A stretch of DNA of 64,000 nucleotides from Pedobacter sp. BS3. GTDB taxonomy: Bacteria > Bacteroidota > Bacteroidia > Sphingobacteriales > Sphingobacteriaceae. Both the position numbers and the translations under genes were made by a program. Below, one piece after another: positions 39,593-62,454 of the stretch. The DNA lies in contig NZ_VTRT01000003.1 in NCBI RefSeq assembly GCF_008274585.1, forward strand, positions 248,001 through 312,000. Direction: 5' to 3'. Numbering within the stretch: the stretch's first letter is position 1; every line of letters begins with the position of its first letter. The notes beneath the pieces were generated by a model. That model had not been told where the DNA came from. It saw nothing but the letters and a program-made list of their open reading frames with translations, and made no database searches.

Positions 39593-39667
39593 GAGTGTTA
39601 ATTCAAAAGTCAAAAGTTAAAATTCAAAACCGGCAAGGGCGAAAAATAATCGTACCCTGCTGGTATA

Positions 39668-40612: not shown

Positions 40613-40657
40613 ATTTATAATACAGGTTAATCAATTGGTCTAAGGTGGTTCAGTTCG

Positions 40658-42184: not shown

Positions 42185-42210
42185 AGGTTTATAAATTACT
42201 GGCCGGGATA

Positions 42211-43263: not shown

Positions 43264-43372
43264 AATATTTAAGTTAAAAGTTGAAAGTCAAAAGTTAAAA
43301 GTCAAATAGCCAACTCATTTAAAATGAGCAACATAAAAATAAACTGGCATTGTTAATTCGAAATTGGTTTTT

Positions 43373-43405
43373 AAACGTCATAGGTCTTTAAAACCTATGA
43401 CGTTT
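43373..43405. repeat. Intergenic palindrome, relative of the one at 695
   Basis: Arms AAACGTCATAGGT (43373-43385) and ACCTATGACGTTT (43393-43405) are perfect over 13 bases. A GTGAAGACAC hairpin follows at 43438-43461. Both lie in the 229-base gap before the ABC genes, with an AAAAGTC heptamer tract near 43271. No gene is predicted in the gap. Confidence 0.65.
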
Positions 43406-43492
43406 GGATATTTAACAGCACTAAAATTCTTAATGTGGTGGAGGGTGAAGACACTCGCCACAGCGATTTATTATTGTATACCTTCATTAAAT

Positions 43493-44374: not shown

Positions 44375-44391
44375 ATTACGGTTAAATAGGT

Positions 44392-45822: not shown

Positions 45823-45870
45823 AATTAATAGTTCTTTATGGTTAGCTCTAAATCGCTATTTCATCCTGTT

Positions 45871-46869
45871 CTATACGTTTACGTCTATCAATTCACCCTG
45901 GAATTCGTAGATGCCATCCTGCGGCTTTTTACCGGTATCAACCAAAAATTGTACGGCCGATTGGCTCATGTCTTTAAGTGGCTGTTTCACATACGATAAG
46001 GGGTATGGGAACAAACGGTATGCTTCGGCCTCATCGTAACAGATGATACCCAGTTTTTTTGGCACTTCTATTCCATATTTAAGGATAATGGGCAATGTAG
46101 ACATGGCAATTTTGTTGGTAAAACAGCAAAGGGCATCTATTTTATCATCATAAATGGCCTTATGAATCAGCGATTCTATCCGGTTGTTCATATCGGATTC
46201 ATCTACTTCATACACAAATACATTTTCTTTTCCGATGTGTCGCTGAGCTGTTTCGGTGAATCCTCTTTTCCGCTCATGCAGATGGAAAAGATTGGTGCTT
46301 AATCCTATTGCTCCCAGGCGTTTATAGCCCCGTTTCAAAAAATCTTCCACTACCATCTCGGATGCTTTAAAGTTATCCAGGCAGATACTGGTAACGTGCT
46401 GAAACTTAGGGAAGACCCGGTCTATCACTACAAAGGGTATATTCAGATTTTGCAGGTAAGGGATAACGTCTTCGGCGCCATCGGGTATTGCCAGTATAAG
46501 ACCATCCACCTGCCGGGACATCATCACATTCAACAGGCTTTTAAACCGCTCCGGGTCTTCGTAGGCGCTGCCAAATAAAACATTATTCCGATACCGGTTG
46601 GCCTCGTCTTCTATATACCGGGCAATGTAAGAGTAAAAGAAGTTAGAAATATCGGCCACTATCAATCCCAATGTATGTGTTTTATTGTTTTTTAAGCTTT
46701 TGGCTATCTGATTGGGGAAATAGTTTTTTTCACGGGCCAGGTCTAAAATCTTTTTAGCGGTATCGGCATTTATCCGTTTCTGATTTTTTCCATTTAAAAC
46801 ATACGAAACCAGGGCAATAGAAACGCCTAATTCGCCTGCAATGTCTTTCATGGATATTTTTTTCGCCAT
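45871..46869 (-). CDS. LacI family transcriptional regulator
   Basis: A 332-residue repressor-type regulator. The N-terminal helix-turn-helix is ISMKDIAGELGVSIALVSYVLNGK (about residues 5-28), then the hinge, and a periplasmic-binding-like effector domain with THTLGLIVADISNFFYSYIAR and SRQVDGLILAIPDG. It would bind a CG-centred palindrome; two matching sites lie in the susC promoter at 53968-54019. Its position between SusCD-phosphoesterase and the esterase/ABC genes suggests it controls the block. Confidence 0.93.
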   Translation of the reverse strand: MAKKISMKDIAGELGVSIALVSYVLNGKNQKRINADTAKKILDLAREKNYFPNQIAKSLKNNKTHTLGLIVADISNFFYSYIARYIEDEANRYRNNVLFGSAYEDPERFKSLLNVMMSRQVDGLILAIPDGAEDVIPYLQNLNIPFVVIDRVFPKFQHVTSICLDNFKASEMVVEDFLKRGYKRLGAIGLSTNLFHLHERKRGFTETAQRHIGKENVFVYEVDESDMNNRIESLIHKAIYDDKIDALCCFTNKIAMSTLPIILKYGIEVPKKLGIICYDEAEAYRLFPYPLSYVKQPLKDMSQSAVQFLVDTGKKPQDGIYEFQGELIDVNV

Positions 46870-46877
46870 ACTTGGAG

Positions 46878-46976
46878 CCTGTTTAAATTTTATATAACGG
46901 TTTTACAGATTTAATTAATGGACGGTGAAGACACCGTCTATGGCTTCCTGCCGCTGCTGGTGTCACCACCAGCAGC
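46878..46976. repeat. Degenerate inverted-repeat element with two hairpins
   Basis: CCTGTTTAAATTTTATATAA (46878) resembles the outer ends of elements A and B. Hairpins follow: 46921-46938 (GACGGTG/CACCGTC around AAGA) and 46953-46976 (GCTGCTGGTG/CACCAGCAGC around TCAC). No right-hand end is found, so it seems a decayed copy. It separates the phosphoesterase and LacI genes. Confidence 0.6.
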
Positions 46977-47088
46977 TTTGTATAACTTAACTTTTTCATT
47001 TTTAAATTATTCTAATAAACGCTGCTTTACTTGATTTAAAAGTGAATAAATTTAAAAAAATCCCATTACAGACATCCTAAATCAATTA

Positions 47089-48645
47089 TTAATATCCCCC
47101 TATTTTAGAATAATCTACTTTTAGCTCGTTGGTTTTATACACGTTGCCAAACCGGTCTGTAGCCCTGACCTCTATATCAGCGCCGGTTACAGGCCCCTGA
47201 ATCTGTCCGATATAAAAATGGTCAAGCGATTTATCAAAATCCGAACCTTTAGCCTTACCGAGTTCTTCGAGATGGTAGTAAGTAGCCCAGAAATCCCTGG
47301 TGGTACGTTTTTGCATATCGCCAACCTTTGTGCCATTTTGAAATAATTCAATTTTCCAGTCGGGGTCTGCGTTCCATACATTGGCCACTACCCACCCATT
47401 ACCGGCCAGGTTAAGATTTACTGTTGCACCAAAAATATAGGTGTATTTATTTGCCGGCCCGTACATTTGCGAAGCATCGTAAGCTCTAATCTGATAATTC
47501 TCATCGTAGCCGGTTGCTTTATATTTCCAGTTTACGATGTTATTACCGTTAACCTGGTAAATAGCATAGCCGTTAGGCGTACCGTCTGAACAGATCGTTG
47601 AATTCCACCACGCACCGCAGGCAGCGCCATGTATATGCTCGTAAATCAGCTTACCATTTACCTGGTGTAAATAATTAGCCTGATAATGCGTATGCCCGGT
47701 CATGATGTGGGCTTGGGAGAATGTGGACAACAGGTTTAAAATCTCATCATGATAACCGATGTGGTCATATTGCCCACCGCTTCGAAAAGGTATATGGGCC
47801 GCATAAATCACCATATTGTCTTTAGGAACCTGCGCTAAATCCTCTTTAAGCCACTCCCACTGTTCATCTGTGATACCGCCCGTATATACCTGCTTAGCGG
47901 TATAGATTACATTGTCCATTACCACAACGTGGGTTTTCCCGCGATTGAACGAGTAATCGGTAGGCCCGAAAGTATCCTGGTAATTCTCCACGCTTTTCTC
48001 ATCGTTGGGCGCTGTTTGCAAGTGGTCGTGGTTACCAATGGTTTGAAAAAACGGCAAACTTTTATTCGACATGGCCGATTTCATGTCACCCCATAGCTCA
48101 GGGGTATCAAAAACAATATCGCCTAAGGTAAAAGCGTACGCGTTTTTATATTTCTTCACCACTTCCTCTATGTCTTTCAGCGTCTCGTTTTTATAGCGTG
48201 CCAGCTCGTTAACATTACGGCACTGCGGATCGGCTACTGCAAACAGGGTAAATTCATTCTCAACGGCTTGCTTAACCAGCGAAAAATCCTGGCGAATCAA
48301 CCGGTCTTTGCTTGTCAGTTTCTCATAAAACTTAGGGCAGTTGTTTGCATCAACCATTACCTTACAATCTGACGGTGTGCTGTAAAATACAAACTTCGCT
48401 TTCTTGTTTCTTACTAACTGATAAATGCCATTATCATCTGTTTTAGCTGCGGTAAAGCCATCGCTAACGACCACTCCTTCTACCGGCTGATTATTTTCAT
48501 CGCTTACCAAACCGTAAAGCGTGGTTTTATCATCCAGCTTCGTTTTTATAGGATTTTCTTCCGGTGGAGGCGCTACAGCGTCTTTATGCTTAGAACATGC
48601 CACCAGAAAGAAAAAACCGATAACTAAAAACACTACTCTCTTCAT
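47089..48645 (-). CDS. Lipoprotein calcineurin-like metallophosphoesterase
   Basis: A 518-residue exported protein. Signal and lipobox FLVAC at residues 13-17; an N-terminal beta-sandwich (LYGLVSDENNQPVEGVVVSDG, about 43-125); a metallophosphoesterase domain with VADPQ (137-141), LGDIVFD (174-180), GNHDH (204-208), AAHIPF (282-287) and GHTHYQ (317-322); then a C-terminal beta-rich domain to the end. All metal ligands appear except that motif I is D-P-Q instead of D-x-H, as in several Bacteroidota relatives. It follows susD by 31 bases, so it likely processes the imported substrate at the cell surface. Confidence 0.9.
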   Translation of the reverse strand: MKRVVFLVIGFFFLVACSKHKDAVAPPPEENPIKTKLDDKTTLYGLVSDENNQPVEGVVVSDGFTAAKTDDNGIYQLVRNKKAKFVFYSTPSDCKVMVDANNCPKFYEKLTSKDRLIRQDFSLVKQAVENEFTLFAVADPQCRNVNELARYKNETLKDIEEVVKKYKNAYAFTLGDIVFDTPELWGDMKSAMSNKSLPFFQTIGNHDHLQTAPNDEKSVENYQDTFGPTDYSFNRGKTHVVVMDNVIYTAKQVYTGGITDEQWEWLKEDLAQVPKDNMVIYAAHIPFRSGGQYDHIGYHDEILNLLSTFSQAHIMTGHTHYQANYLHQVNGKLIYEHIHGAACGAWWNSTICSDGTPNGYAIYQVNGNNIVNWKYKATGYDENYQIRAYDASQMYGPANKYTYIFGATVNLNLAGNGWVVANVWNADPDWKIELFQNGTKVGDMQKRTTRDFWATYYHLEELGKAKGSDFDKSLDHFYIGQIQGPVTGADIEVRATDRFGNVYKTNELKVDYSKIGGY

Positions 48646-48676
48646 AAATCTTACATTAAAAACTGCACAACCTCTG

Positions 48677-50491
48677 TTATTTATTTTCCCACAAATAATT
48701 CTGTTTCAAATTGGGATTTCTTGTAATGGCTTCGGTGGGTATTGGTTTCAGGTATTTATATTCTGCCCATACCCGCTGGTAGTTCCATACCAGGTTTTTA
48801 TCAGTATTAAAGGAGAAGGTTTGATTGGCATTACTTGAACTTACGGGAACGGTATTGACCGTTTCGGATGAGCTTACGGCAAAATCAGTAATTCCGTCAC
48901 CATTAAAATCATAGGACGCACCGGGATCTGGTATATAAATACCTGTCCAGGGATTATCGCTGCTATTTAACAAGTCGCCCATGTGCCAGCGCATTAAATC
49001 ATTCCATCGTAATCCCATTTCCAGGCATAATTCGGTAGCACGTTCCCGGCGCACCTCTAAAATCAATGGGTCCGAAATGGTATTTTTGTAATAATCTTTC
49101 AAATAAGGGTCTGCAACGGTTGGATAAATAGAAGTAACTCCGGCCCTGTTGCGCAATAATGTAATGGAGCGAGCCCATTCAGAAATACCCAATTCGCCTA
49201 ATTCCGCTTTCGCTTCCGCGTAGTTTAGCAGCACTTCTGCATACCTTAATATGGGTAAGCTGTTCCAGCTTGCAGCCCGCGAAAGAATATTATCGGCATC
49301 GTCATCTATTGACCATTTTATAGGCTGATAGCCTGTGCGTGTGGTTAACCAACTGGGTGAATAAAGAGCGTTTACCCCATTCCGTGTCATTCTGTACTTG
49401 GGCGATATCACCGTTTGCGCCAGCCTCAGATCCCTGTCAGTAAATTCATCACTGTACGTAATGGTTTTATAATTTGATTTTGAAGTAAAAGGCGTCCCGT
49501 CCTTCATCAAATAGGTATTGATAAACTTTTTGGTAAGCGACGCTTTACTTCCGTAGGTAGGCGAATAATACACCCAGGAAAGATCATGAAATGTAGAAAG
49601 TCCCTTACTAAACTGCCTTCCCCAGATTATTTCTGTGGTATTGAGCTTTTCTGAAGTAAACAAGCTTCTGTAAGCCGTTTCCTTGTTGCCATTCACCAAA
49701 GAAAATGTTCCCGACTGCATAATCTCTTCTGACGCGGAAATGGCGGCTCTTAAAAACTTCTTTATATTTTCATCCCTGTTCGTCCAGGCTTGCCCGGTAG
49801 ATGGATCTACCTGGTGATACGTCCGGTAGGTTCCTTCAAATAAACAAACCCTGGATTTGAAAGCCAATGCCACCCATTTATTTATGGCCGTTCCCCCGGC
49901 GCTGTATTTATCGGCTCCTGAACAATTCTGAGAGGCAAAGTCTAAATCTTCCAATATTTTATCCATTACAAACTCCCTGGAATCTTTGGGTTTATTCAGC
50001 GCCTCCGTATCATTTGATTTGATAACCTGGTCGTAGAACGGAACCGCACCAAAGGTAGCAACCTTGTCATAGTAAAACCAGGCACGCCAAAACCGGCCGA
50101 CGCCTTCATAGTGATTGTATACTTCATCGCTGATCTTACCTTTTAACTTTGTCATGTTGTTTAAGAAATAATTAATATTTCTAAGGTTGCTCCACGATCC
50201 TTCGGTCCAGCCTCCCTGGTTACCGGGTGACACATTACCGTCAGGGCGTAGCAGGTCGGTAGGAATCTGTACCGCACAATAATCTGCGTTGATATCATTA
50301 TAGCCGATGGTTGTTGCGGATGGCGTCATATTTTGCAGAAAGCCATTGGCATATAGTTCAAGGTCAGATTCAGACTCAAAGAAATTATCCGAGCTAATGG
50401 AGTCATACGTATCTCTTTCCATAAACTTTTTACAGGATACAGCGGATATTATCAGCATGACCACCATGATATGTCTAATTATCTTATTCAT
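48677..50491 (-). CDS. susD: SusD/RagB family nutrient-binding lipoprotein
   Basis: A 604-residue surface lipoprotein that binds the ligand and caps the SusC barrel. The leader MNKIIRHIMVVMLIISAVSC ends in a lipobox. The helical TPR-like core includes FYYDKVATFGAVPFYDQVI, LNYAEAKAELGE and ERATELCLEMGLRWNDLMRWHMGDLL near the end, all SusD hallmarks. It starts 19 bases after susC and is followed by the phosphoesterase gene. Confidence 0.95.
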   Translation of the reverse strand: MNKIIRHIMVVMLIISAVSCKKFMERDTYDSISSDNFFESESDLELYANGFLQNMTPSATTIGYNDINADYCAVQIPTDLLRPDGNVSPGNQGGWTEGSWSNLRNINYFLNNMTKLKGKISDEVYNHYEGVGRFWRAWFYYDKVATFGAVPFYDQVIKSNDTEALNKPKDSREFVMDKILEDLDFASQNCSGADKYSAGGTAINKWVALAFKSRVCLFEGTYRTYHQVDPSTGQAWTNRDENIKKFLRAAISASEEIMQSGTFSLVNGNKETAYRSLFTSEKLNTTEIIWGRQFSKGLSTFHDLSWVYYSPTYGSKASLTKKFINTYLMKDGTPFTSKSNYKTITYSDEFTDRDLRLAQTVISPKYRMTRNGVNALYSPSWLTTRTGYQPIKWSIDDDADNILSRAASWNSLPILRYAEVLLNYAEAKAELGELGISEWARSITLLRNRAGVTSIYPTVADPYLKDYYKNTISDPLILEVRRERATELCLEMGLRWNDLMRWHMGDLLNSSDNPWTGIYIPDPGASYDFNGDGITDFAVSSSETVNTVPVSSSNANQTFSFNTDKNLVWNYQRVWAEYKYLKPIPTEAITRNPNLKQNYLWENK

Positions 50492-50510
50492 TACAGTATA
50501 TCTAATGTGG

Positions 50511-53500
50511 TTAAAAACTTAGGTTAAAGCCCAATGTAAAGGTTTTCAGCATCGGGTAGGAAAACCCGTTTCCTGTGCCGTTCAAGCCGGATGTTGTGGA
50601 GTTCGCGAAATCACTGTCACCAGATTCTATCACTTCAGGATCAAACATATCGGTGTATTTATACATGGGCGAATACGTCCATAGATTTTCTGCCGACAGG
50701 TACACCTTAAAGACATCAACTCCTATTTTTCGCGATATACGTTTTGGTATGGTATAATCTACCGTGATATTTTTCAAACGTATATAAGAAGCATTTTGGA
50801 GATAATGGGTATTTTCCCAGGTAAGCGGGCCATCATTTCTATTCGCTGCCAGCGATACCCGGCGTGTCCAGTATGGGTCTTTATCCATATTGGTTACCTG
50901 CCAGTTATCCGTAGATTTATCTACCTGCACAATGTTGTCACCGGTTTGCGATTTCATGAGAAATCCATAAGCCCTGTTATGCTGGCCCCAGAAAAATCCG
51001 GATTCAGTCCAGGGATACCAGTTTCTTTTTAACACGCCCTGGAAGAACGATGAAATACCAACGCCTTTCCAGTTTGCGGACAGGTTAAACCCGAACTGGT
51101 ATCGCGGCGTAGTATTACCGATAATTTCCATATCGCCATGACTGCTGAGCGTACGGCTGCCTTTTGTCATAATGCCATCGCCATCAACATCTACAAATTT
51201 TAAGTCTCCGGCGTAAGCCTGAAACATCTCCCCGTTCTTAAAAAAATTATACGCGGGCCCGTTATTGGCTTCGGCATTACTTGCATAGATACCCGCCGTT
51301 CTGAATCCCCATATCTCTCCTAATTCCATGCCTTTGTAATAGGTTGTCAGGTCACCGTTAGCATTGTAGTAATCGGTCACCCAGCTCCGGCTATCCTCCC
51401 ACATCATGGCTCTCACGCTGTAATTAAACGGCGATTTAGAAATCATAAATTGGTCTCTCCAGGTCAGGCTGGCTTCCCAGCCCCTGGTTTTCAGGCTGGC
51501 AAAATTGCCTTTTGGTGCGGCACTGCCTAATACCTGCGGTAAATTAGGCCCTACAGTATATAGATCATCTGTATAACGGTTATAGATGTCGCCGGTAAAG
51601 CTTAACCTGCTTTTCAAAAGCTCTATATCGGCTCCAAGGTTATAGGTTAATACTTTTTCCCAGGTAATACCATCAGGAATTAAATTGGGAACTTCGGTAT
51701 AGGGCACCTTATTTCCGTTGACCAGTACCGAGCTTTTGCTGAAGTTCATGACTTCCAGGAATTGGTACGGACTGATATTGGCATTTCCTAAGGAACCTAC
51801 GCTGCCCCGGATCTTAAGGTTATTCAACCACGGGCCTACGTTGTTTTTAAACCATTTTTCTTCTGAGACCAGCCAGCCCAGCGAAGCGGAAGGAAAGAAG
51901 CCCCATTGTGAATCTTTCGGAAATTTGGATGAGCCATCGTACCTGAAGCTAAATTCGCCCAGGTAACGGTTCTTAAAATTGTAATTGATACGTGAAAACA
52001 CACCCATTAATCCCCAGGTATTACCGCCCGACAGCGTGGAGTAGTACTCGCCGTCCATCAGCGTAAAGCTTGGTTTTGAAGGATAAAGATTTCCTGTACG
52101 GTACGTTTTTTGATTTCTGTAATGACTGTCTTCCAAATTCCATCCGGCCACCAGGTTCAGCTCATGCCCGCCCGAAAGCTTTGGGGTAAATGTGCCCACT
52201 ACATTGGATGATATATAATCGGTGTTATATCGCCAGTCTTCAAACGATGATTCATTATAATCTTTTCCCGAAGCCGTTATACCGGTGTAAAACGTGTATA
52301 AATTCTCTGCTCGTTGCCGTTGCGAACGCATGGATTTATAGGTAAAATCGGCCCGTACGTTAAATACTTTGGGGACAACATCAATAATCAGTGACGATGT
52401 ATTGCCAACCTCGATATCTTTATTTTCCTGGAAAGACGTGCCTTCCGCAAAAGCGGCATAACCAACTTTTGCCGCGGTTTGCGTCCACGTTCCGTCAGGA
52501 TTTTTAATATTGGCAACCGGGAACCCGAAAGCGTCTATTTGCCGGCCTACTACGTTCTGACCGTAATGAATCATGGGTTGCAGGTAATTCCCCTTAATCA
52601 GGCTGGTGTTATTTTCAAAAGTCAGCCAGGGGCGAAGCTTTATAGAACCTTTAGCTCTCAGATTATATCGCTTAAAATCTTCATTTCCTACTTTATAGAT
52701 ACCGCTTTGGTCATATATTCTTCCGGAAACATAATAATTAACCAAATCCTGGCCGCCCTGGAAATTTAAGGAGTGCACATACGAATAGTTATGGTTTTTA
52801 TAAAACTCCTTTAACCAGTTTGTATTTCCATAGTACACATAATTCCCGTTTGCATCTACATTATAGTTATCTAACGTAGGATCGTTCTGCCGTCTCTTTA
52901 ATTCTGTAAACCAGCTATCGGAATAAGGGAAATAATTATTCATTAAAGAAGGTACTGTAGCGGTAGGAGAAGAATTCAGGTACGATTCTCTGAATCCCTC
53001 TACCCATTGAACCGGATCACTCACGATATTATCTTCCCATAAAACGGTTCTTTGTAAAAATGAGGTGGAATTGGCGTACGATATTTTAGTTGTTCCCGCT
53101 TTTGGTTTGCGGGTGGTGATTAAAATCACACCAAAAGCCCCCCTGGCCCCATAAACCGCGGCAGACGAAGCGTCTTTAAGCACACTGATGCTCAATATGT
53201 CATCGGGATTAACCGTATTGATATCACCTTCCGCCCCATCAATCAAAATCAAGGCCCCGCCACCCTGGCCCAACGTATTACTGTACTGACCACCGCCCTC
53301 TTTTCTGGCTTTAAAGCTGGTATTCTGCCCCCGAATAGTCAGATCGCCACCGTGATCAGGTTTGCCGTCTACCTGTACAATGTTAAGACCGGGAACCTGG
53401 CCTTGCAATGCACGGGTTATGTTGGGCGTAGGCCGGTCTTTAAGATCGTCACCTGAAATCTCAGCCACAGCTCCCACAACCGATTTCTTTTTCAGTGTTC

Positions 53501-53870
53501 CGTATCCTACAACCACAACCTCGTCCATAAACAGATTATCGCTTACCATCGTTGTTGTAAGCGTAGCCTGACCCTGGTAAACCATTTCCTGGGTTTTATA
53601 TCCCAAATAGGAAAATACCAGCGTATCCTGCCTGTTCAAAGCAATGGCGTATTTACCATCCTTATCAGACGAGGTGGCTTTGTTAGTACCTTTTACCTTG
53701 ATGACCGCACCCTGGATAGGCAAATTGTCTTCTCTCGATAAAATTGTTCCATGTACGGTAGTTTGGGCATAAAGCGTCCCTTCTCCTACAAGCATGATGA
53801 AACACAAGGAGGCATTTCGAAATAAGTGTAAACACCTCTTATTTCGAAGTAGAAAATAAAAGTATTTCAT
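50511..53870 (-). CDS. susC: SusC/RagA family TonB-linked outer membrane protein
   Basis: A 1119-residue TonB-dependent transporter. A long N-terminus with signal (ASLCFIMLVGEGTLYAQ) leads the carboxypeptidase-like domain (VHGTILSREDNLPIQGAVIKVKGTN) and the SusC-specific MDEVVVVGYGTLKKKSVVGAVAEI. The plug has ALQGQVPGLNIVQVDGKP, ILIDGAEGDINTVNPDDILSISVLKDASSAAVYGARGAFGVILITTRK. The barrel ends YPMLKTFTLGFNLSF. No ECF sensor domain is present, consistent with control by LacI. First gene of the susC-susD-phosphoesterase unit. Confidence 0.96.
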   Translation of the reverse strand: MKYFYFLLRNKRCLHLFRNASLCFIMLVGEGTLYAQTTVHGTILSREDNLPIQGAVIKVKGTNKATSSDKDGKYAIALNRQDTLVFSYLGYKTQEMVYQGQATLTTTMVSDNLFMDEVVVVGYGTLKKKSVVGAVAEISGDDLKDRPTPNITRALQGQVPGLNIVQVDGKPDHGGDLTIRGQNTSFKARKEGGGQYSNTLGQGGGALILIDGAEGDINTVNPDDILSISVLKDASSAAVYGARGAFGVILITTRKPKAGTTKISYANSTSFLQRTVLWEDNIVSDPVQWVEGFRESYLNSSPTATVPSLMNNYFPYSDSWFTELKRRQNDPTLDNYNVDANGNYVYYGNTNWLKEFYKNHNYSYVHSLNFQGGQDLVNYYVSGRIYDQSGIYKVGNEDFKRYNLRAKGSIKLRPWLTFENNTSLIKGNYLQPMIHYGQNVVGRQIDAFGFPVANIKNPDGTWTQTAAKVGYAAFAEGTSFQENKDIEVGNTSSLIIDVVPKVFNVRADFTYKSMRSQRQRAENLYTFYTGITASGKDYNESSFEDWRYNTDYISSNVVGTFTPKLSGGHELNLVAGWNLEDSHYRNQKTYRTGNLYPSKPSFTLMDGEYYSTLSGGNTWGLMGVFSRINYNFKNRYLGEFSFRYDGSSKFPKDSQWGFFPSASLGWLVSEEKWFKNNVGPWLNNLKIRGSVGSLGNANISPYQFLEVMNFSKSSVLVNGNKVPYTEVPNLIPDGITWEKVLTYNLGADIELLKSRLSFTGDIYNRYTDDLYTVGPNLPQVLGSAAPKGNFASLKTRGWEASLTWRDQFMISKSPFNYSVRAMMWEDSRSWVTDYYNANGDLTTYYKGMELGEIWGFRTAGIYASNAEANNGPAYNFFKNGEMFQAYAGDLKFVDVDGDGIMTKGSRTLSSHGDMEIIGNTTPRYQFGFNLSANWKGVGISSFFQGVLKRNWYPWTESGFFWGQHNRAYGFLMKSQTGDNIVQVDKSTDNWQVTNMDKDPYWTRRVSLAANRNDGPLTWENTHYLQNASYIRLKNITVDYTIPKRISRKIGVDVFKVYLSAENLWTYSPMYKYTDMFDPEVIESGDSDFANSTTSGLNGTGNGFSYPMLKTFTLGFNLSF
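53816..53848. other. Stem-loop inside the first codons of susC
   Basis: Arms TTCGAAATAAG (53816-53826) and CTTATTTCGAA (53838-53848) pair perfectly over 11 bases with an 11-base loop. They lie within codons 8-19 of susC, an unusually long N-terminal extension before the signal peptide. A hairpin so near the start could modulate translation. Confidence 0.45.
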
Positions 53871-54147: not shown

Positions 54148-55464
54148 ATGAAATTTCAAAAACCACTCATCACTTTACTCCTTCTTTCAGGGTTCGCTTT
54201 ATTTTTCTCTTGTAAAGACAATAATAAAGAGCTCTTTCTGAAAAGGAATTTAGAAGAATTATCTTTTGACTATACCGAAAGCAGCCGGGAATTTACTGTT
54301 CGTGCCACCGGAGAATGGTCAATTGAAGTACCTTCTGAATATTCATGGATTAAAGTAGAACCATCTTCAGGGATTGGAGATGGCGTAACCTATCAAAAGG
54401 TTATTGTAACCTGTAGCCGGAATACGGCAGATTCCCGCGAAGGTACCATTTATTTAAATGGGGCCAATCAATCAAACGTTCCTATTAAGGTTAATCAAAA
54501 AGACGGCTTATTTGAATGGACAACTTATTCTAACGGTGCTCATTTAGAATTGCAGAATGCCTTAATTGTAGGGCAGGCTTCTACATCAACCATCAATATT
54601 CCTTATAGTAAAGCTGTGGGAAACGAATCTTTTCCCGTTACCGTTACGCTGTCAGGTAAAGGAGCATCGGGCTTATCTGTAGGAACTACAACGGTAACCA
54701 TTCCTGAAGAGGGCGATGGCTTTATTCGTATCCCTGTATCGGGCACCCCCAACACACAGGGATATATACAAATAGGTGTTAAAATAGACAACCAGGATTT
54801 TGGCCAGATCAATTCCATTGCCGCTATGGGTAATACTGTTATAGAACAGCATTTTAATAAATTCTTGTGGGGCGGCGATTGCATTGGTAATAAAGAAGGT
54901 ATCACTACGGTAAAAGCTACCGCCGAAATGTCTTTAGCAGACGAAACCAAAATTTGTGCTATTGGCGATAACGGAGCTAATGGGTCAGGTGTTACATCAA
55001 CTATCCGAAGCAGCAATATTAGTTTCTATAAAGAAATAGAAATGGAAAACTGGTTCGGATTGCGGAATTATATGCGCCCCGGATACATCCAATTAGGCGC
55101 TGCCAGTGCAACAGCTACCGAATTTGGCTCGCTTATTACTCCCGGACTTGACTTGCCCGGTACTCAAGATCTGTTGGTAACATTCAGGGCAGCCATTTAT
55201 AATAACCCGGCGCCCGCAACTATCCTCGTTGGTCTCATTCCTAAAAATACCGATGGTATTAAAACTACCAATGTAAACCTGATTAGTAATAAGGAAAGTA
55301 TCCCGCTAAATATCAGAGCACAAACCTGGGTAAACATTACCTGTGTGGTTAAAAACGCCACTAACGCATCAAGCCTGGTTATCTCTTTACCGGAAGAGCT
55401 TAACCAGGGCGGTACCGTGCAGGCGTCACGGGTATATATTGACGATATAGTAGTAACTTATTAA
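54148..55464 (+). CDS. BACON-domain surface lipoprotein
   Basis: A 438-residue lipoprotein: signal MKFQKPLITLLLLSGFALFFSC with lipobox; BACON-like domain at about 34-118 (LEELSFDYTESSREFTVRATGEWSIEVPSEYSWIKVEPSSG, CSRNTADSREGTIYL), a beta-sandwich of about 120-232, and a C-terminal module of about 235-438 starting HFNKFLWGGDC and containing ENWFGLRNYMRPGYIQLG, SLITPGLDL and DDIVVTY. That module also occurs in the next gene. It probably binds carbohydrate at the surface. Divergent from susC, with the LacI sites between. Confidence 0.82.
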   Translation: MKFQKPLITLLLLSGFALFFSCKDNNKELFLKRNLEELSFDYTESSREFTVRATGEWSIEVPSEYSWIKVEPSSGIGDGVTYQKVIVTCSRNTADSREGTIYLNGANQSNVPIKVNQKDGLFEWTTYSNGAHLELQNALIVGQASTSTINIPYSKAVGNESFPVTVTLSGKGASGLSVGTTTVTIPEEGDGFIRIPVSGTPNTQGYIQIGVKIDNQDFGQINSIAAMGNTVIEQHFNKFLWGGDCIGNKEGITTVKATAEMSLADETKICAIGDNGANGSGVTSTIRSSNISFYKEIEMENWFGLRNYMRPGYIQLGAASATATEFGSLITPGLDLPGTQDLLVTFRAAIYNNPAPATILVGLIPKNTDGIKTTNVNLISNKESIPLNIRAQTWVNITCVVKNATNASSLVISLPEELNQGGTVQASRVYIDDIVVTY

Positions 55465-55474
55465 ACGATACAAC

Positions 55475-56911
55475 ATGAAAATTTTAAAAAATATTCAAGC
55501 CATACTCCTGTTATTTGTATGTGTATCTACACTAAACTCCTGCGAGGACAAAGGCGAGATTACCATTACCAATAAGTTTGCGGAAGATGTTCCGGGAAAC
55601 GTACAGTTATTGGGGTATACCAGTAAAAGCATAACGGTAGCCTGGGATTTTAATGAAAAGGCGACGTCTTATACGGTACAACTTTTAGCCAGTGCTGATG
55701 CTGATAATCCATTGTACACTTACACTACTTCTACCGAGGATTATTTTGAATTCAGTAATTTAAATGCCCGGACATCTTATTATGCCCGGGTAAGGGCAAA
55801 TTTCCCCTACTCGGAAACTTCAAAATGGGTGTATATCATGAACAATGATAGCCGGGCCCGGATTATCCCGGCTTACGGTATTGTTGATGACGATTTCGAG
55901 ATCACCTATATTAAACTGGTCAATGCTTCTTCATCTACGGTAACGGCCGAATGGTCTTTCACTGATTTTCTTGACATGGACAGTGAAATAAATAACAAAT
56001 TCACGCTAGGACTTTATAAAGATGCTGCCTGTACTGATCTGTATATCAGCTGGGAAAATATTTCAGGGTTATTCACGGTATCTACAGTAAGTTTACCCAA
56101 GCCATTACGCTTTACGTTCTCCGGCTTAGATGCCAATACCGAGTATTATCTCAAGATAAAGGATGAAACCAATAAAATGGAATCAAATGTGCTAAAAGTA
56201 AAAACATTAGCGGCTATTGCTGCTCCAAGCGGTAATCCTTCCAAAGCAGATGATATCTTATTATCGCAGGATTTTTCCAAATTTATTCATGGAGGCGATA
56301 TACTTTTTTCTGCGGCTGGCTATACTGTTAGCACAGCATTGGGAAGAGGCACATGGTCTCCGGCAACGGGAGCAAATCCTGTAAAAGCAGACCTGGGCCA
56401 GAATGTATGTGATCTGACTACTGAGTTTAACGTATTTGACGGAGGTAACGTAGCAACGCCCTATACTGTTGGAACAGGCATGGAAAACTGGGGCAAAAAT
56501 GGCAATACCTCTACCCGACCGGGTTACATAAAAATTGGCGGAAGCGGTGCTGTTGCAGCATTATACACGCCTAAACTAAGCAAGGTAGGTTCGTTTACAT
56601 CTGTTACAGTGAGCGTTAAAGCAGCTGTATATTCTGAAGGAGCAAATAATTACTGCGACAACATTAAAATCGAAGCTATTGAAGGCGCCACGTTTTCGGC
56701 TAAAGGCGCTATAAGCAATTTAAGCAGCATCACGGTAAAAGATTCAAAAACCGTTAATATTGCCGGCTCACTTCACAAATTTGATGAATATTCGGTAACC
56801 TTAAATAATATAACACCCGAAACACGCATAGCCATATCCTCCGATCCGGCCGGTGTCAGCGGAAACAAGACCCGGTTCTTATTAGATGATGTTATTGTGA
56901 AAATAAAATAG
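55475..56911 (+). CDS. Fibronectin type III surface lipoprotein
   Basis: A 478-residue lipoprotein (signal to lipobox LNSC near residue 23). An FN3-like domain spans about 41-121 (LLGYTSKSITVAWDFNEKATSYTVQLLAS), then a second beta domain (about 140-245), then a C-terminal module (265-478) beginning DFSKFIHGGDIL with ENWGKNGNTSTRPGYIKIG, LYTPKLSKV and DDVIVKIK, homologous to the end of the preceding protein. It starts 10 bases after that gene, so both are made together. Likely a ligand-binding partner of the neighbouring SusCD. Confidence 0.8.
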   Translation: MKILKNIQAILLLFVCVSTLNSCEDKGEITITNKFAEDVPGNVQLLGYTSKSITVAWDFNEKATSYTVQLLASADADNPLYTYTTSTEDYFEFSNLNARTSYYARVRANFPYSETSKWVYIMNNDSRARIIPAYGIVDDDFEITYIKLVNASSSTVTAEWSFTDFLDMDSEINNKFTLGLYKDAACTDLYISWENISGLFTVSTVSLPKPLRFTFSGLDANTEYYLKIKDETNKMESNVLKVKTLAAIAAPSGNPSKADDILLSQDFSKFIHGGDILFSAAGYTVSTALGRGTWSPATGANPVKADLGQNVCDLTTEFNVFDGGNVATPYTVGTGMENWGKNGNTSTRPGYIKIGGSGAVAALYTPKLSKVGSFTSVTVSVKAAVYSEGANNYCDNIKIEAIEGATFSAKGAISNLSSITVKDSKTVNIAGSLHKFDEYSVTLNNITPETRIAISSDPAGVSGNKTRFLLDDVIVKIK

Positions 56912-56914
56912 GTA

Positions 56915-57050
56915 AACGAGGGTGTCTAAAAAGCTCACGTCGTCCCGAGGCATAGCCGAGGGATCTCCGCCAAAAGTGCTTGTGACGGAGATTTCTCCTC
57001 CTAAAATCATCGAAATGACGATGTCTTTTGACTTTTTAGACACCCTCGTT
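56915..57050. mobile_element. Short inverted-repeat element C
   Basis: Perfect 19-base terminal inverted repeats: AACGAGGGTGTCTAAAAAG (56915-56933) and its complement (57032-57050), enclosing about 100 bases with a CCGAGGCATAGCCGAGG-like hairpin. The GGTGTCTAAAAAG core equals the inner repeats of element B. It starts 3 bases after the FN3 gene stop and ends before the pseudogene, so it could end transcription in both directions. Confidence 0.75.
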
Positions 57051-57071
57051 TTTCTTTCGTCTATACGTTTG

Positions 57072-57742
57072 CTATTTTACATTAGGGCTTATTTCTATTA
57101 ACACAGGATAATGATCTGAAGGCAGCTTATCCTCATAGCTGTCCATAAGAATGTTATATTGCTCTATTTTAAACCGGGAGCCTGTAACAAAAATATGATC
57201 TATAGGGCCTTTAGCGGGTGAATTAACGTTAAAATGGTTGAAGGATCCACCGGATGAATACCTGAACGTTGCAAGCTCAAACGCATCTCTTAACAGTCCC
57301 GAATTATTCAGCAGTGAATAATCCGGGCTGTTCCGGTCAAAGTTAAAATCGCACAGATCCGTTCAAACTTGGCATCCCAACCTTTGCTTTCCGTATCGGG
57401 CGTTGCCGATAACCAGAAATGCCCGCTGTTTTGTAAGGTAAGCCGGTTTTTATTGTATAAAATTCCGGTAGGGATTTTAGTAAACACACCAATACTATCA
57501 AACCTGGGCAGTGTGTTGATTAAATAGCCGGCCATATCGGCCTCAGTTTCCTGTAAACCTATAATATCGAACTGGTATTTTTCAATAAGGTTTACTACAA
57601 GTAATTTTCTGTCTTCCCACAAATTTCCAATACCGGTGGCCACGTGACCACGAAGATTATAACTGGCTACTACCAGATCCTGACCTTTTGCCTGCAATAA
57701 ATACAGGCAAAAGATGATTATTGCAGATATAGTACTTTTCAT
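57072..57742 (-). pseudogene. Endonuclease/exonuclease/phosphatase family gene, internal deletion and frameshift
   Basis: The N-terminal part (57308-57742) has a signal peptide (SAIIIFCLYLLQAKGQ), LVVASYNLRG and DIIGLQETEAD, and reaches WDAKFERICA. Frame then changes: from GAT at 57350 to the TAG at 57072 another frame encodes DFNFDRNSPDYSLL, GPIDHIFVTGSRF and LPSDHYPVLIEISPNVK, the family's C-terminal part. The NTH-x-DH segment normally between RICAW and TGDFN, perhaps 40-60 residues, is missing. In the first frame translation ends at 57308. The product cannot be active. Homologues are exported DNases or phosphodiesterases. Confidence 0.85.
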
Positions 57743-57854
57743 ATAACTGGTTATTATCGGTTAGTAAAACGGGGTCAGTAAAAACTGAGCGGGTTGGGAG
57801 AGATAATTGAATGAGGGAGACTAAAAAATCGACAAAGTCAATCAGTTTACAGTC

Positions 57855-57884
57855 ACGCTTCCCCCGAAGTATCGGGGGAAGCGT
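57855..57884. repeat. Strong intergenic hairpin, with TTCGACAGGCTCAGGATG repeat nearby
   Basis: Perfect 13-base arms ACGCTTCCCCCGA/TCGGGGGAAGCGT around AGTA. A CATCCT/AGGATG inverted repeat (CATCCTTCGACAGGCTCAGG and on) at 57903-57925 follows, an interspersed form common in many genomes. The 57743-57975 gap contains no gene. Confidence 0.6.
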
Positions 57885-57975
57885 CTGTAACCATGATAAA
57901 CTCATCCTTCGACAGGCTCAGGATGACTATAAAGGATTGTTTGCCTCTCTCATTCAATCTAATTTGTATTTAAGA

Positions 57976-58557
57976 TCAGTTTTTATAAATGGCAAAATCA
58001 TCCAGGCTTAACCTGCCGTTAGCAATAGACGGATCATTCTTATCGCTACCTAAAGCGAGCTTGACAATGCGAAAACGCACCTGTCCTTTAATATCTAAGT
58101 TATAGGTGGCCTGCTGCTTTACTTTACTTACCGCCTCAATAACTTCGCCGGTTTGTTGCCAGCTTTTGCCATTATCGGTAGAATACTCCAGACGAAATTT
58201 ACTGGACTTATCTGCTTTAGTAGCATACGAGCTATACCAGAAGGTTACTTTTGATGCACCATCCGGCACGTCAAAATTCATTCTTAAATAGCACTCTTTG
58301 GTATTATTGCCCAGCATCCGGACTGCACTGGAACCTGTCACCGGCTTATCATTAGCAAAACTGTCTATTCTTGCACCATATAAAGTCCAGGAACCACTTT
58401 TTAATTCAAGGTTTTGCTTACCATACCCGGCCTCTCCGGCTGGTGCATTCTCAAAGCTTTCCGGAAAATTTGTATACAATGTACCTTTTTGAGCTTTCAA
58501 TGAGCTTATACTAACGGATAAAATTAGAACTGTTAATAGCGTTTTAATAGTTTTCAT
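57976..58557 (-). CDS. Secreted beta-sandwich protein (module shared with the DUF5689 protein)
   Basis: A 193-residue exported protein with signal MKTIKTLLTVLILSVSISSLKAQ. The mature domain has FPESFENAPAG, KPVTGSSAVRMLGN, FDVPDGASKVTFWYSSY, FRLEYSTDNGKSWQQTGE and LSLDDFAIYKN. These align, in the same order, with residues about 266-431 of the DUF5689 lipoprotein at 60535. It has no lipobox or T9SS tail; it looks like a jelly-roll or concanavalin-like binding module. Last gene before the pseudogene on the minus strand. Confidence 0.75.
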   Translation of the reverse strand: MKTIKTLLTVLILSVSISSLKAQKGTLYTNFPESFENAPAGEAGYGKQNLELKSGSWTLYGARIDSFANDKPVTGSSAVRMLGNNTKECYLRMNFDVPDGASKVTFWYSSYATKADKSSKFRLEYSTDNGKSWQQTGEVIEAVSKVKQQATYNLDIKGQVRFRIVKLALGSDKNDPSIANGRLSLDDFAIYKN

Positions 58558-58626: not shown

Positions 58627-60420
58627 TTAAAGCTTCATTATCTTTTTACTGATAACAGGATTACCCTGATTAACCAGCGTAGCTACGTATATACCATTTT
58701 GAGCAGATACAGGTACCTGCACCACATTTTGCCCGCTGTTTAACCGGATCAGCTTCCGGTAAATTATTCTGCCCGAAAGATCCGTTAGCAGAAAATCCGA
58801 TGCTGCTGTTTTTTCTGATGTAAATGATATATTCAAAACATCTCCGTTAAAAAAAGCGTTAAACGCCGGTTGCGTTAAGCCCGATTTTACGGGTATAATG
58901 CCAGACAATTCCGCGTTACCGTTGTCATCTACCTGGCGCAGTTGATAGTAATTTGTTCCGTTAACCGGATTAACATCTGTAAAGCTGTATGATTGCGGCT
59001 CATTGGTAGTGCCTTTGCCCTGCACAATACCTAACACCAGCGGCTCCTGCCCCTCCCTTATCCGTAATACTTCAAAATAAGCGTTATTCTTTTCTGACGC
59101 CGTTTGCCAGTTCAGGAGAATATTACTCCCATTGCTTTTCCCTGTGAAGGAGGTAAGATTTACGGGCAATGTGCTTTCTACCGTACCATCTAAAGACAGT
59201 ACATAGCTATTTGAAGCATACTGGTCTGATACACCAATATTGGTAGAACCGGTGGAATTATTAGAACCGCTAACATACACCCTGAAATAAACAGTAGTAC
59301 CCGCAACAACATCTTGTAAGGCATTAACCGATGATAAATCTATTGAGGGCGCATAGATACCGTATGTATTATCTTCCGGCAACAGGTAAGGTTCTGCCAG
59401 CTTTACAAAGTGCGTACCATCTACACTATATTTCCAGTACCATACCTGCGATCCTCCGGCGCTCCGTCTCACTTTATAATTCAGCTTACTTAGGGAGATA
59501 TTATAACCAGTCTTCGCTGTAGCGCTGAATGTAAAATACATATCGTTGGCTACAGCTATGGCCGTGTCTGCAAAGTCATTGGTTGAAGCAAACTTAGCAA
59601 TAGCACTAAATGCCCGGGAATAAGTGGCGGTATTATTCAACCCGTCTCCACGTGATAAAGTTGCTGTTTCCAGATTACTATTATTCAGGCTGGCAGCAAT
59701 ACTAACTTCATTTCCCGCTGTTGATGGGTTACCAAATTGCCACGCCAATAAAGAAGCAGATGTGGATAGATTTTCTACTGAACCACCAACTGAAAGAGAA
59801 AAATCGGCTGATGTTCCGGCTGCAGAACGCCCGATAGCTGTGGTTCCTGTACCACTATTACCAGCGTATAGTCTTAAATAAACTGTAGTTCCGGCCGGAA
59901 GATCCTGCAAAGCCGGTATGCCAGACAGATTTACTGTAGGCTGAACAGCACCTTCGCCGGTTGGTGGATTCGCAGAAACATCAACAGGATCGTTAATTTT
60001 ATTAAAATGAGTTCCGTCTAAGCTGTATTTCCAGAAATAGAGCTTTGCACCGGCCGCACTGCTTAACCTTAATTTATAAATAATATTGCTTAAAGAGGCC
60101 TTATAACCAGATTTCACTGTTACATTGAACCCAAAGTACATATCCTGGGCAACCATACCGGTTGTATCAGTAGCTGTACCCACGCGGCTTGAAACAAAGC
60201 CCCGTGGCAAAGTAGTACTTGGCGCCATCCAACCTGCACCTCTCGTCAAATCAGTTACTGTTAACCCATCATTTGCATACGAAGCCGGAGCACTGGCCTC
60301 ATTACCAACACTTTCCGGAGTGGAGAATTGCCAGCCTACAATCTGCGAATAGGCTGCATTACGGATAAATCCTCCCAGCAAAACTGCCAGGATAAGAACA
60401 CGTACGTAATTTTTCATCAT
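58627..60420 (-). CDS. T9SS-secreted protein with two WQFG-type repeat modules
   Basis: A 597-residue exported protein: signal (VRVLILAVLLGGFIRNAAYSQ); module 1 about 27-216 (IVGWQFSTPESVGNEASA); module 2 about 225-415 (LLAWQFGNPSTAGNEVSI); each with FWKYSLDGTHF or YWKYSVDGTHF and LQD-AGTTVY-R-Y. An FN3-like linker (LPVNLTSFTGKSNGSNILLNWQTASEKNNAYFEVL, about 419-511) and a type IX secretion sorting domain (LNISFTSEKTAASDFLLTDLSGRIIYRKLI...NGIYVATLV, about 523-597) follow. The protein would be exported through T9SS and anchored or released at the surface. The module recurs in the neighbouring protein at 60535. Confidence 0.85.
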   Translation of the reverse strand: MMKNYVRVLILAVLLGGFIRNAAYSQIVGWQFSTPESVGNEASAPASYANDGLTVTDLTRGAGWMAPSTTLPRGFVSSRVGTATDTTGMVAQDMYFGFNVTVKSGYKASLSNIIYKLRLSSAAGAKLYFWKYSLDGTHFNKINDPVDVSANPPTGEGAVQPTVNLSGIPALQDLPAGTTVYLRLYAGNSGTGTTAIGRSAAGTSADFSLSVGGSVENLSTSASLLAWQFGNPSTAGNEVSIAASLNNSNLETATLSRGDGLNNTATYSRAFSAIAKFASTNDFADTAIAVANDMYFTFSATAKTGYNISLSKLNYKVRRSAGGSQVWYWKYSVDGTHFVKLAEPYLLPEDNTYGIYAPSIDLSSVNALQDVVAGTTVYFRVYVSGSNNSTGSTNIGVSDQYASNSYVLSLDGTVESTLPVNLTSFTGKSNGSNILLNWQTASEKNNAYFEVLRIREGQEPLVLGIVQGKGTTNEPQSYSFTDVNPVNGTNYYQLRQVDDNGNAELSGIIPVKSGLTQPAFNAFFNGDVLNISFTSEKTAASDFLLTDLSGRIIYRKLIRLNSGQNVVQVPVSAQNGIYVATLVNQGNPVISKKIMKL

Positions 60421-60480
60421 CTTTTAATTTTTAATTGTTTACAACTGTTTTTTACCTTCTTGGGATTTATTAATTCTACT

Positions 60481-60492
60481 TAAAACGTTTTA
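60481..60492. promoter_or_regulatory. Possible LacI-type palindrome
   Basis: TAAAACGTTTTA is a perfect 12-base CG-centred palindrome 61 bases upstream of the T9SS protein gene. It differs from the susC sites (TTAAACGTTTAA) by one base per half. It could be a weak site for the same or a related regulator, or chance. Confidence 0.3.
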
Positions 60493-60534
60493 GCATAAGG
60501 TTATCATTTTATTATATCTGTGTTATTTGTAGTG

Positions 60535-62454
60535 TTACTGAGAAAGAGAACCGCCTATGCTCAGCACATCAGTGGCAGTACCCGCAGGTGTGCGACCGAT
60601 AGAGAAAGACCCTGAGCCGATATTAGAAAAACCCCAGCAATACATTCTTAATGTTACCGTAGTACCTGCCGGTATATTTTGCAATTCTGATGTTTGATAG
60701 ATATAGTATGCCGGCATTTCAGTTCCTTCCGTGTCTGTCCCTTCATAGCTCATATCCCCTGTACCCAGGGTTTCATGGAAGTTGACACCATCTAAGCTGT
60801 AATACCATTTGTGATTTCTTGCCCCGGCAGCACTTCGCCTTAGCTTGACGTTAATGGCAGAAAGAGATAGCTTATATCCCGACTGTACGATAAACTTTAC
60901 CTGGTAATATACATCCTGGCTAAGAGCCAGGGCCTTGGTTGAGGTGATAATGGTTCCCCCGGCAGTTGAGGCAAAGCTTCTTACTAACGACGACGCGGTT
61001 AAGCCCGGACCACGTTCAAGCACGGCATTGCTAAGTCCGGCGTGGGTTGTTGTTGAGGTTTTGCTTACTTCATTGCCTGCTGTAGCCGGAGTTCCGAATT
61101 GCCAGCCTAAAACCGTTGCGTATTCCGGTACCGGGTTGGTTATAGGGCCACCTGCTTCCGGATTTTTGTAAACCGCAAAATCGTCCATGCTGAAACGCCC
61201 GTTCTGGTTATTGGTGGTAGAGTTTCCGATGCCTATTTTGCCTATCCGGAAACGCACCGGCCCTCTGAGATCCATCAGGAAGGTAAATTGCTTTTTCACT
61301 TTGCTTATGGTTAGGATATCCTCTCCTACCTGGCTCCAGGTTATTCCCTGATCCTGTGAATACTCCAGGCGCCAGGTAGAACCGAGATCTGCTGATGCGC
61401 CATAGGAACCGGCCCATACCGTTACTTTTGTGGCTCCGTTAGGAAGATCATAGTTCATGGTACACCAGGAGCTTGTAGCAGAGCTTCCGACCAACCGTAA
61501 AGCATATTGACCTGTAACCGGTAAATCGTTAGCTGTATTTCCTACATATATATTTTGAAGCGTGTAATTTCCGGTACTGAAATTTCCTGTTTTGGTAGAG
61601 TAGCCATCAACAAATAAAGCTGCCTCTCCAGACTCAAAACTTTCCGGAAAACCTGTATATATCCTTCCGCTCTCATCTTCAATACCATCTGCATTAACTA
61701 TCCATAATTGCTTCCTGTGTGTATCGTCAGCATCGCTGTTCCACCTGGCGACAGCTGTATAAGAAGCATTTAAGGCAACGGCTTTATCGGCAAAAGTGGC
61801 CGTAGGCTCAGTGTGTAAAATACCGGTGCTACCGGTTGGCTCTGTAATCACAACATCGCCCTGCATTACGTCTCCCGCGGCATCTACGTTGGCTATTTTT
61901 ATCAGTGTGCCCTCATAATCGTCAAACTTTTCATTCAGCGTTTCGAGCGATACCAGTGTTGGCTCGGCCAGCCGGTTTTCTGCTACTTTGGTAACTCGTT
62001 CAATTGAAGATACATGAATTTGTAACGCACCTTTATTCCGGGTAATGGTTGCACCGTTTACATTGACCACTACAGAATCACCAATTTTATAAGGGATATT
62101 GGTGGCCTGCGTAACCGAAACTTCAATTCCCCTCTTCAATGTCCTGCTGGTTTGTTGTATGGCAAATACTCCCGGGGGAATGTTTCCCGATGTAGCATCT
62201 GAAACAACCACCCCGGTTATTTTGTCCGCACCATCCATATTACTTGTATTCAGCACCACATCAGCCCCTTTATAAATTTTGCGTACATCCAATATAGATA
62301 TGTATTCATTAGGGGTTCCCGAAGCCGGGAATACATCTTTTTTCAGGCAGGACGCCAGCGTCAATACACATCCAAACAGCACTAAGAACAGGCTATATTT
62401 GTGTATTGCGCTTTTATTGACCTTTCTTATTTTAACAAGCTTCAAATTATTCAT
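60535..62454 (-). CDS. DUF5689 lipoprotein with sandwich and WQFG modules
   Basis: A 639-residue lipoprotein (lipobox LASC near residue 36). A DUF5689-like domain spans about 48-255 (YISILDVRKIYKGADVVL, GVVVSDATSGNIPPGVFAIQ, IGDSVVVNVNGATI); a beta-sandwich spans 266-431 (FPESFESGE, WRLEYSQDQGITWSQVGED, GRFSMDDFAVYK), the same as the 193-residue protein; a WQFG module spans 447-639 (LGWQFGTPATAGNEVSK), the same as in the T9SS protein. DUF5689 genes usually sit beside SusD in Bacteroidota. It follows susD by 51 bases, same strand, and probably binds or trims the SusCD substrate. Confidence 0.85.
   Translation of the reverse strand: MNNLKLVKIRKVNKSAIHKYSLFLVLFGCVLTLASCLKKDVFPASGTPNEYISILDVRKIYKGADVVLNTSNMDGADKITGVVVSDATSGNIPPGVFAIQQTSRTLKRGIEVSVTQATNIPYKIGDSVVVNVNGATITRNKGALQIHVSSIERVTKVAENRLAEPTLVSLETLNEKFDDYEGTLIKIANVDAAGDVMQGDVVITEPTGSTGILHTEPTATFADKAVALNASYTAVARWNSDADDTHRKQLWIVNADGIEDESGRIYTGFPESFESGEAALFVDGYSTKTGNFSTGNYTLQNIYVGNTANDLPVTGQYALRLVGSSATSSWCTMNYDLPNGATKVTVWAGSYGASADLGSTWRLEYSQDQGITWSQVGEDILTISKVKKQFTFLMDLRGPVRFRIGKIGIGNSTTNNQNGRFSMDDFAVYKNPEAGGPITNPVPEYATVLGWQFGTPATAGNEVSKTSTTTHAGLSNAVLERGPGLTASSLVRSFASTAGGTIITSTKALALSQDVYYQVKFIVQSGYKLSLSAINVKLRRSAAGARNHKWYYSLDGVNFHETLGTGDMSYEGTDTEGTEMPAYYIYQTSELQNIPAGTTVTLRMYCWGFSNIGSGSFSIGRTPAGTATDVLSIGGSLSQ

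Follow-up and report, generated by a model that had tools for sequence, protein, structure and literature searches.

The stretch of Pedobacter sp. BS3 DNA analysed here (the window: 64,000 nucleotides, positions 248,001 to 312,000 of contig NZ_VTRT01000003.1) holds a second SusCD cluster in which neighbouring genes for exported proteins carry copies of the same domains (Table 1), raising the question of how these copies came to stand side by side and what they serve. The system is of a kind already known, a SusCD operon with shared binding modules, of which the window holds a decayed form. It looks like the leftover of such an operon and not a fresh shuffling event, and is probably what remains of a conserved SusCD operon of the family devoted to capture and cutting of a phosphodiester-containing ligand at the cell surface.

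The shared domains are two. The motif [GA]WQF[SG][TN]P..[AV]GNE, pointed out in an earlier note made from the sequence, has exactly three matches in open reading frames (ORFs) of the window, GWQFSTPESVGNE and AWQFGNPSTAGNE in the type IX secretion system (T9SS) protein at 58627-60420 and GWQFGTPATAGNE at residue 450 of the DUF5689 lipoprotein at 60535-62454. It belongs to a module of about 190 residues, hereafter the WQFG module. A search with the lipoprotein copy (copy 3) gives the two others at E 7.9e-35 (copy 1, 45% identity) and 3.6e-28 (copy 2, 37%), so that the three copies are real and far beyond chance. The second shared domain is a sandwich domain in the middle of the lipoprotein (61159-61698) which recurs, as that note had also seen, as a protein of its own at 57976-58557 (45% identity, E 7.2e-46); this protein lies beyond the interval of 58627-62454 in which the repeats had been placed.

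Modelled from 40 sequences, the lipoprotein copy of the module yields a structure with pLDDT 95.8 and pTM 0.92, whose predicted fold is a β-jelly roll like that of carbohydrate-binding modules (CBMs). The earlier note had proposed structure prediction of the modules as a check, to see whether folds differ between copies; one copy was modelled, and the likeness of the other two follows from sequence homology. The best structure matches listed are reelin repeats and CBM families 4, 29, 22, 28, 15 and 32 (Z 8.4-9.9 over 117-145 residues), the matches being rich in CBM4, 15, 22, 27, 28, 29 and 32, while Foldseek alone puts structures of CBM4 and CBM32 at the top, at E values around 1e-3 and with no TM-score above 0.5. 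The likeness to CBM4, CBM22, CBM29, CBM32 and reelin repeats is thus one of predicted fold among the matches listed, at 6-14% identity and with no CBM family of Pfam reaching its cut-off, and unrelated non-CBM chains, IFT25 and BcsB among them, score alike. Among 18 modules scanned with Pfam and NCBIfam, the models used for matching to CBM families, none reaches a cut-off; PF00754 (F5/8 type C) matches four of the 18 weakly (best E 5e-4) and gives 25.7 bits on a whole protein, below its cut-off of 28.2. R, W and Y positions are conserved in the modules and may be structural.

The module is not confined to the window. One search of the genome (27 contigs, 4.8 Mb) returned 12 copies in three clusters, those of the window, C22:27667-30798 and C3:38844-43489, nine of the copies lying outside the window cluster; a 13th, divergent copy is found at L013:12861-14129. 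Matches occur in 6 of 60 genomes searched as relatives (at 1e-5) and in 25 of 395 drawn from the phylum (at 1e-10), the window genome being included in both sets. The sandwich domain has matches in 126 of 301 genomes of the family, again with the window genome counted. Its copy 2 has weak likeness to choice-of-anchor-J and reelin models, below the cut-offs of Pfam and NCBIfam, and a low-confidence model from a two-sequence alignment (pLDDT 52.3) lists the EclA sugar-binding domain, reelin, gingipain adhesin domains and meprin as similar folds. Pfam gives no function for DUF5689, of which the genome has ten genes.

The closest counterparts of the window cluster are found in four other genomes of the family (loci L123-L126), each with a 640-670-residue lipoprotein composed of DUF5689, sandwich and module beside SusC and SusD (the L123 SusC extends beyond the stretch examined). 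The EEP enzyme of these loci carries one to four modules, together with a sandwich in all but the L125 enzyme; the enzymes of L123 and L125, and one of the two from L126, also have a T9SS tail. Further genes of L123 and L125 encode a T9SS module protein, together with a free sandwich protein, a free EEP and an MFS transporter most like GlpT/UhpT/PgtP models, below the cut-offs of the named models; L125 also has a GDPD gene. The window lipoprotein is 69% identical over 633 residues to the L123 protein with the same domain order, SusD (whose full ORF is present in L016) is 79% identical to that of L123, the T9SS protein 42% to its L123 counterpart, and the free sandwich protein 60% and 61% to those of L123 and L125. 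All module-bearing proteins of the window have an export signal: a lipobox, LASC, is read by eye in the DUF5689 lipoprotein, and the T9SS protein ends in a type A sorting domain (TIGR04183, 24.4 bits against a cut-off of 23), its Pfam equivalent PF18962 remaining at 17.6 bits, below the cut-off of 27.

These relatives suggest how an intact operon could work. The DUF5689 lipoprotein and the T9SS-exported proteins would hold the ligand through the CBM-like module, often with a second, reelin- or choice-of-anchor-J-like sandwich; the module-bearing EEP-fold phosphodiesterase or phosphatase would cut it, and TonB-driven SusC with SusD would import the product. GDPD and the GlpT/UhpT-like transporter of some relatives may handle small products. 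In the window, the first ~900 residues of SusC would have been lost, and the module-bearing enzyme would have disappeared through a deletion that joined two EEP genes standing side by side; SusD, the lipoprotein, the T9SS protein with its two modules and the free sandwich protein are still open frames.

SusC is represented by its last ~260 residues at C21:312031-312810, just outside the window, with 81% identity to residues 901-1160 of the L124 SusC and 61.5% to the L014 SusC; the next gene past this fragment is AraC-like. The ORF at 57308-57742 is an EEP remnant (PF03372, pieces at C21:305111-305350 and C21:305512-305667) and no full PF03372 domain with catalytic residues in one frame is found in the window EEP, the stretch of the alignment with the invariant His being absent. 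The N-terminal part (57353-57742) is 65% identical to the L123 enzyme-type EEP versus 42% to the free EEP; the C-terminal part (57087-57356), which lies in a different frame, shares 50.5% identity with the free EEP versus 38% with the enzyme. The remnant looks like the start of an enzyme-type EEP joined to the end of a free EEP, and the simplest reading of these identities, which are to the single relative L123, is one deletion between adjacent EEP genes, through which the module-bearing enzyme would have lost its sandwich, its modules and its T9SS tail. Because SusC and the enzyme are broken, the cluster has probably ceased to work as a system.

It was considered whether a SusC fragment at C23:1455-2036 could supply what the window SusC lacks. 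The two were not assigned to one gene, since the C23 fragment is 71% identical to C3-type SusC versus 61.5% for the window fragment, an indirect test. The same contig end (L131 1015-2045, within C23:1-12000) has FecR and C3-type SusC fragments near the contig start, a second broken SusC locus, and in a DUF5689-GDPD locus (L135 6226-7671) SusD appears split into ORFs of 357 and 100 residues, as judged with a SusD query. Adjoining the EEP remnant is an element resembling a miniature inverted-repeat transposable element (MITE), with 25 matches in the genome, many of them partial and its own included; on the other side of the remnant stands a second inverted repeat with imperfect 35-nucleotide arms (57806-57958).

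Did the module copies spread recently among neighbouring genes? The earlier note had suggested that adjacent genes exchange binding modules, and the trees speak against this as a recent event. In a 71-module tree the window lipoprotein copy forms one clade with its four counterparts in the lipoproteins of L123-L126 (100/100), and it is 71% identical to the module at the same position in L123 versus 41% and 36% to its two neighbours. The window T9SS copies belong to a 14-row group with 11 enzyme modules and L123 T9SS copy 2 (99/92), in which copy 2 pairs with L123 T9SS copy 2 (96/77) and copy 1 goes with enzyme modules (95/86). Recombination that copies modules between adjacent surface genes of the cluster is very unlikely, even if some results leave it room: a single clade of the three window modules is not rejected in the first tree (approximately unbiased (AU) test, p 0.37), nor is a single in-operon origin for the lipoprotein, enzyme and T9SS modules of EEP-type operons (AU p 0.38, two L123/L125 T9SS rows falling outside), and the T9SS pairs of BNR-type operons nest among the DUF5689 lipoprotein modules, a mark of old spread within the operon. 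That the two window T9SS modules arose by a recent tandem duplication was discarded: they were sisters (96/98) in the first tree, before L123-L126 were added, and this grouping is not seen with the closer operons, although sisterhood is not rejected (AU p 0.11).

Elsewhere in the trees, the free, BNR_2-borne and lipoprotein modules of BNR-type operons form groups by position across species. One clade for the lipoprotein modules of EEP-type and BNR-type operons is rejected (AU p 0.001 in the first tree, 0.0007 in the wider one), so that the lipoprotein most simply gained its module at least twice, long ago. The tree positions therefore indicate old spread inside operons followed by mostly vertical descent, and nothing in the window points to a recent exchange. 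The companion idea of the earlier note, one ligand recognised by several surface proteins, fares better: the copies are homologous, their predicted fold is one shared with many CBMs, and other genomes, too, have one module type on several surface proteins of an operon, which suits a shared ligand.

What this ligand could be is suggested by gene neighbourhoods. Within 5 kb of one of the ten DUF5689 genes stand 8 of 19 EEP genes (21 matches minus the two window remnant pieces; 0.4 expected, binomial 3e-9), 3 of 9 GDPD genes (0.2 expected) and 1 of 10 BNR_2 genes (12 matches with two partial ones merged; 0.2 expected, P 0.2), P values that are rough because placement was assumed uniform and clustered genes were counted singly. 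The nearest solved relatives of the EEP set are 4c1r, a mannosyl-6-phosphatase, level with the uncharacterised 3mpr, followed by nocturnin and TDP2. The proximity of EEP and GDPD to DUF5689 genes and these solved relatives favour a phosphodiester or phosphomonoester substrate.

Genes were also typed with Pfam around 24 module loci (the window, L013, L014, L027-L029, L062-L075 and L123-L126), a set gathered by module likeness without matched control. A BNR-like, SASA, EEP or PLD domain is present in 18 of the 24 stretches, that of the window being the remnant, and none of the four was recognised in L028, L070, L071, L073, L074 and L075. The module is fused to EEP in L123-L126, to BNR_2 in L014 and L062-L064, to SASA in L066, to PLD in L029, and in L013, L027 and L069 (with weaker modules in L066) to a domain that we label BNRc, which has no Pfam match above cut-off. 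BNR-type operons, found in Sphingobacterium phlebotomi, Pedobacter arcticus and Pedobacter sp. ASV28 (L062-L064) and at C3, carry the module on BNR_2, on the DUF5689 lipoprotein and on a single-module protein that stands free; except in S. phlebotomi, a T9SS protein has it twice as well. A BNR-type partner was considered for the window cluster and set aside, the BNR_2 matches of the genome lying elsewhere (nearest C21:328022) and the window operon type having EEP instead. The domain repeated after DUF5689 is the module in BNR-type operons and the sandwich in EEP-type operons, and the free single-domain proteins (L014 11423-12046, L062-L064, window 57976-58557) are copies of it; they have a signal-like N-terminal stretch, and neither lipobox nor T9SS tail was seen in them by eye.

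Several observations weigh against a decayed system for phosphodiester capture. The DUF5689 loci at C3 and C12:388838 show neither EEP, GDPD nor an MFS of organophosphate type in the stretches viewed, and that at C24:259148 shows the MFS only, typed by likeness to L123. The 20-kb stretches of L124 and L126 have no T9SS-module protein, free sandwich, free EEP, GDPD or such MFS, and the L125 enzyme EEP is of another kind than that of L123, barely matching the window remnant (30% identity over 43 residues) and agreeing poorly with either of its parts. The module need not mean phosphodiester, since other loci have it joined to BNR-like, SASA and PLD domains; jelly-roll Z scores near 9-10 are common and no proof of function, and the Foldseek TM-scores do not exceed 0.5. 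Finally, the breaks in SusC and EEP are seen in one assembly only, and the remaining genes are open frames, leaving room for a residual role.

The EEP and PLD superfamilies include nucleases, and an operon scavenging DNA or RNA, with DUF5689/sandwich proteins binding DNA and EEP and PLD acting as nucleases, is an alternative that we consider unlikely. A DNA ligand is made possible by the report that a Riemerella anatipestifer DUF5689 protein annotated as choice-of-anchor J is among those essential for natural transformation (PMC8459023), and a cluster of the phosphate utilisation system (PUS) has been proposed to take up lipid headgroups and nucleic acids (PMC8115612). Against it, GDPD and the GlpT/UhpT/PgtP-like transporter agree better with glycerophosphodiesters or sugar phosphates, a mannosyl-6-phosphatase is among the two nearest solved relatives of the EEP set, and the module, predicted to have a CBM-like fold, is also fused to BNR-like and SASA domains. 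It is likewise improbable that the modules are spacers that bind no ligand and hold other domains off the membrane. Tandem arrays with up to four modules before a T9SS tail (L126), the low identity between copies and free single-domain proteins without known role would agree with spacers; free single modules and the module N-terminal to the BNR-like domain of L069 would make poor ones, the fold is common to many ligand-binding CBMs, and the conserved R, W and Y positions argue for binding, though they could be structural. Of wider reach, and doubtful at present, is the possibility that the module is an undescribed CBM-like family recognising one class of acidic or phosphorylated glycan, which Bacteroidota attach to mutually unrelated enzymes of EEP, PLD, BNR-like and SASA type that act on this class and, within the same SusCD operons, also to the DUF5689 lipoproteins and T9SS proteins, its sharing marking an unrecognised phosphoglycan-foraging system.

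The nearest described system to the phosphodiester-capturing operon proposed here is the PUS (PusCD) of Flavobacterium, likewise a SusC/SusD pair with phosphodiesterase or phosphatase genes, in some cases with inner-membrane organophosphate transporters (PMC8115612). PUS are defined by induction on phosphate depletion (PMC8115612), whereas the operons described here are known from their genes alone; DUF5689 is not named in the accessible portion of that paper, and its PusD1 and PusD2 are PF07980 and PF14322 whereas the window SusD is PF12771. L123-L126 have SusC, SusD and a co-located EEP, plus GDPD in L125. In the window copy the pair is reduced to an open SusD and the end of SusC, and no co-located phosphodiesterase or phosphatase other than the frame-broken EEP remnant is present in the second SusCD cluster, GDPD and the calcineurin-like gene standing in the other one. 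The BNR_2/SASA SusCD operons (L062-L064, C3) share the module on the DUF5689 lipoprotein, the free single-module protein and an enzyme, and L063, L064 and C3 the module twice on a T9SS protein, L063 and L064 with GDPD; they differ in the enzyme, which is BNR_2 and not EEP, and in the lipoprotein, which has no sandwich and a module from another lineage. In DUF5689-sandwich SusCD loci, for example C27 (L030) of the window genome, the sandwich likewise comes after DUF5689, and EEP, GDPD and a SusD of the window's kind are present, but no WQFG module. A literature search combining SusD, wall teichoic acid and Bacteroid gave no match, and DUF5689 is named in one of the papers searched.

Table 1. 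Features of the second SusCD cluster and selected genes of the first SusCD cluster of the window
Feature	Position	Strand	Basis or remark
SusD-like_2 lipoprotein, 503 aa	62506..64000	-	PF12771, 317 bits; ends 17 bases beyond the window
DUF5689 + sandwich + module lipoprotein, 639 aa	60535..62454	-	ORF; PF18942, E 5e-19
DUF5689 domain, residues 51-254	61693..62304	-	PF18942, 69.4 bits, above cut-off of 28.6
Sandwich domain copy 1	61159..61698	-	likeness to protein at 57976
Module copy 3, C-terminal end of DUF5689 protein	60544..61116	-	hidden Markov model (HMM) built including this copy; structure model
T9SS cargo protein, two modules, 597 aa	58627..60420	-	ORF; TIGR04183; module HMM
Module copy 1	59776..60345	-	likeness to copy 3; bounds from module HMM
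Module copy 2	59179..59754	-	likeness to copy 3; bounds from module HMM
C-terminal part with type A T9SS sorting domain (residues 529-596)	58627..59175	-	TIGR04183
Free single sandwich-domain protein, copy 2	57976..58557	-	likeness to copy 1
EEP remnant	57087..57742	-	N and C parts in different frames
MITE-like element	56912..57053	.	138 bp at 56914-57051; perfect 20-bp inverted ends; adjoins EEP remnant
GDPD	43493-44374		first SusCD cluster
SASA esterase	44392-45822		first SusCD cluster
LacI regulator	45871-46869		first SusCD cluster
Calcineurin-like phosphoesterase	47089-48645		first SusCD cluster, with SusD and SusC

The first SusCD cluster of the window (38135-53870) shares the phosphodiester theme and is adjoined by a sugar ABC transporter and a mannitol dehydrogenase. 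Between the two clusters lie two plus-strand genes with BACON and fn3 domains (54148-56911).

The WQFG module represents a jelly-roll family for which neither Pfam nor NCBIfam has a model; it offers a way to find SusCD operons around EEP phosphodiesterases, and it links DUF5689 to EEP-type operons by gene neighbourhood. The window shows how such an operon may die, with the transporter and the enzyme lost and the binding proteins kept as open frames. The ligand, if found, would tell which phosphorus-containing polymer these Bacteroidota forage.

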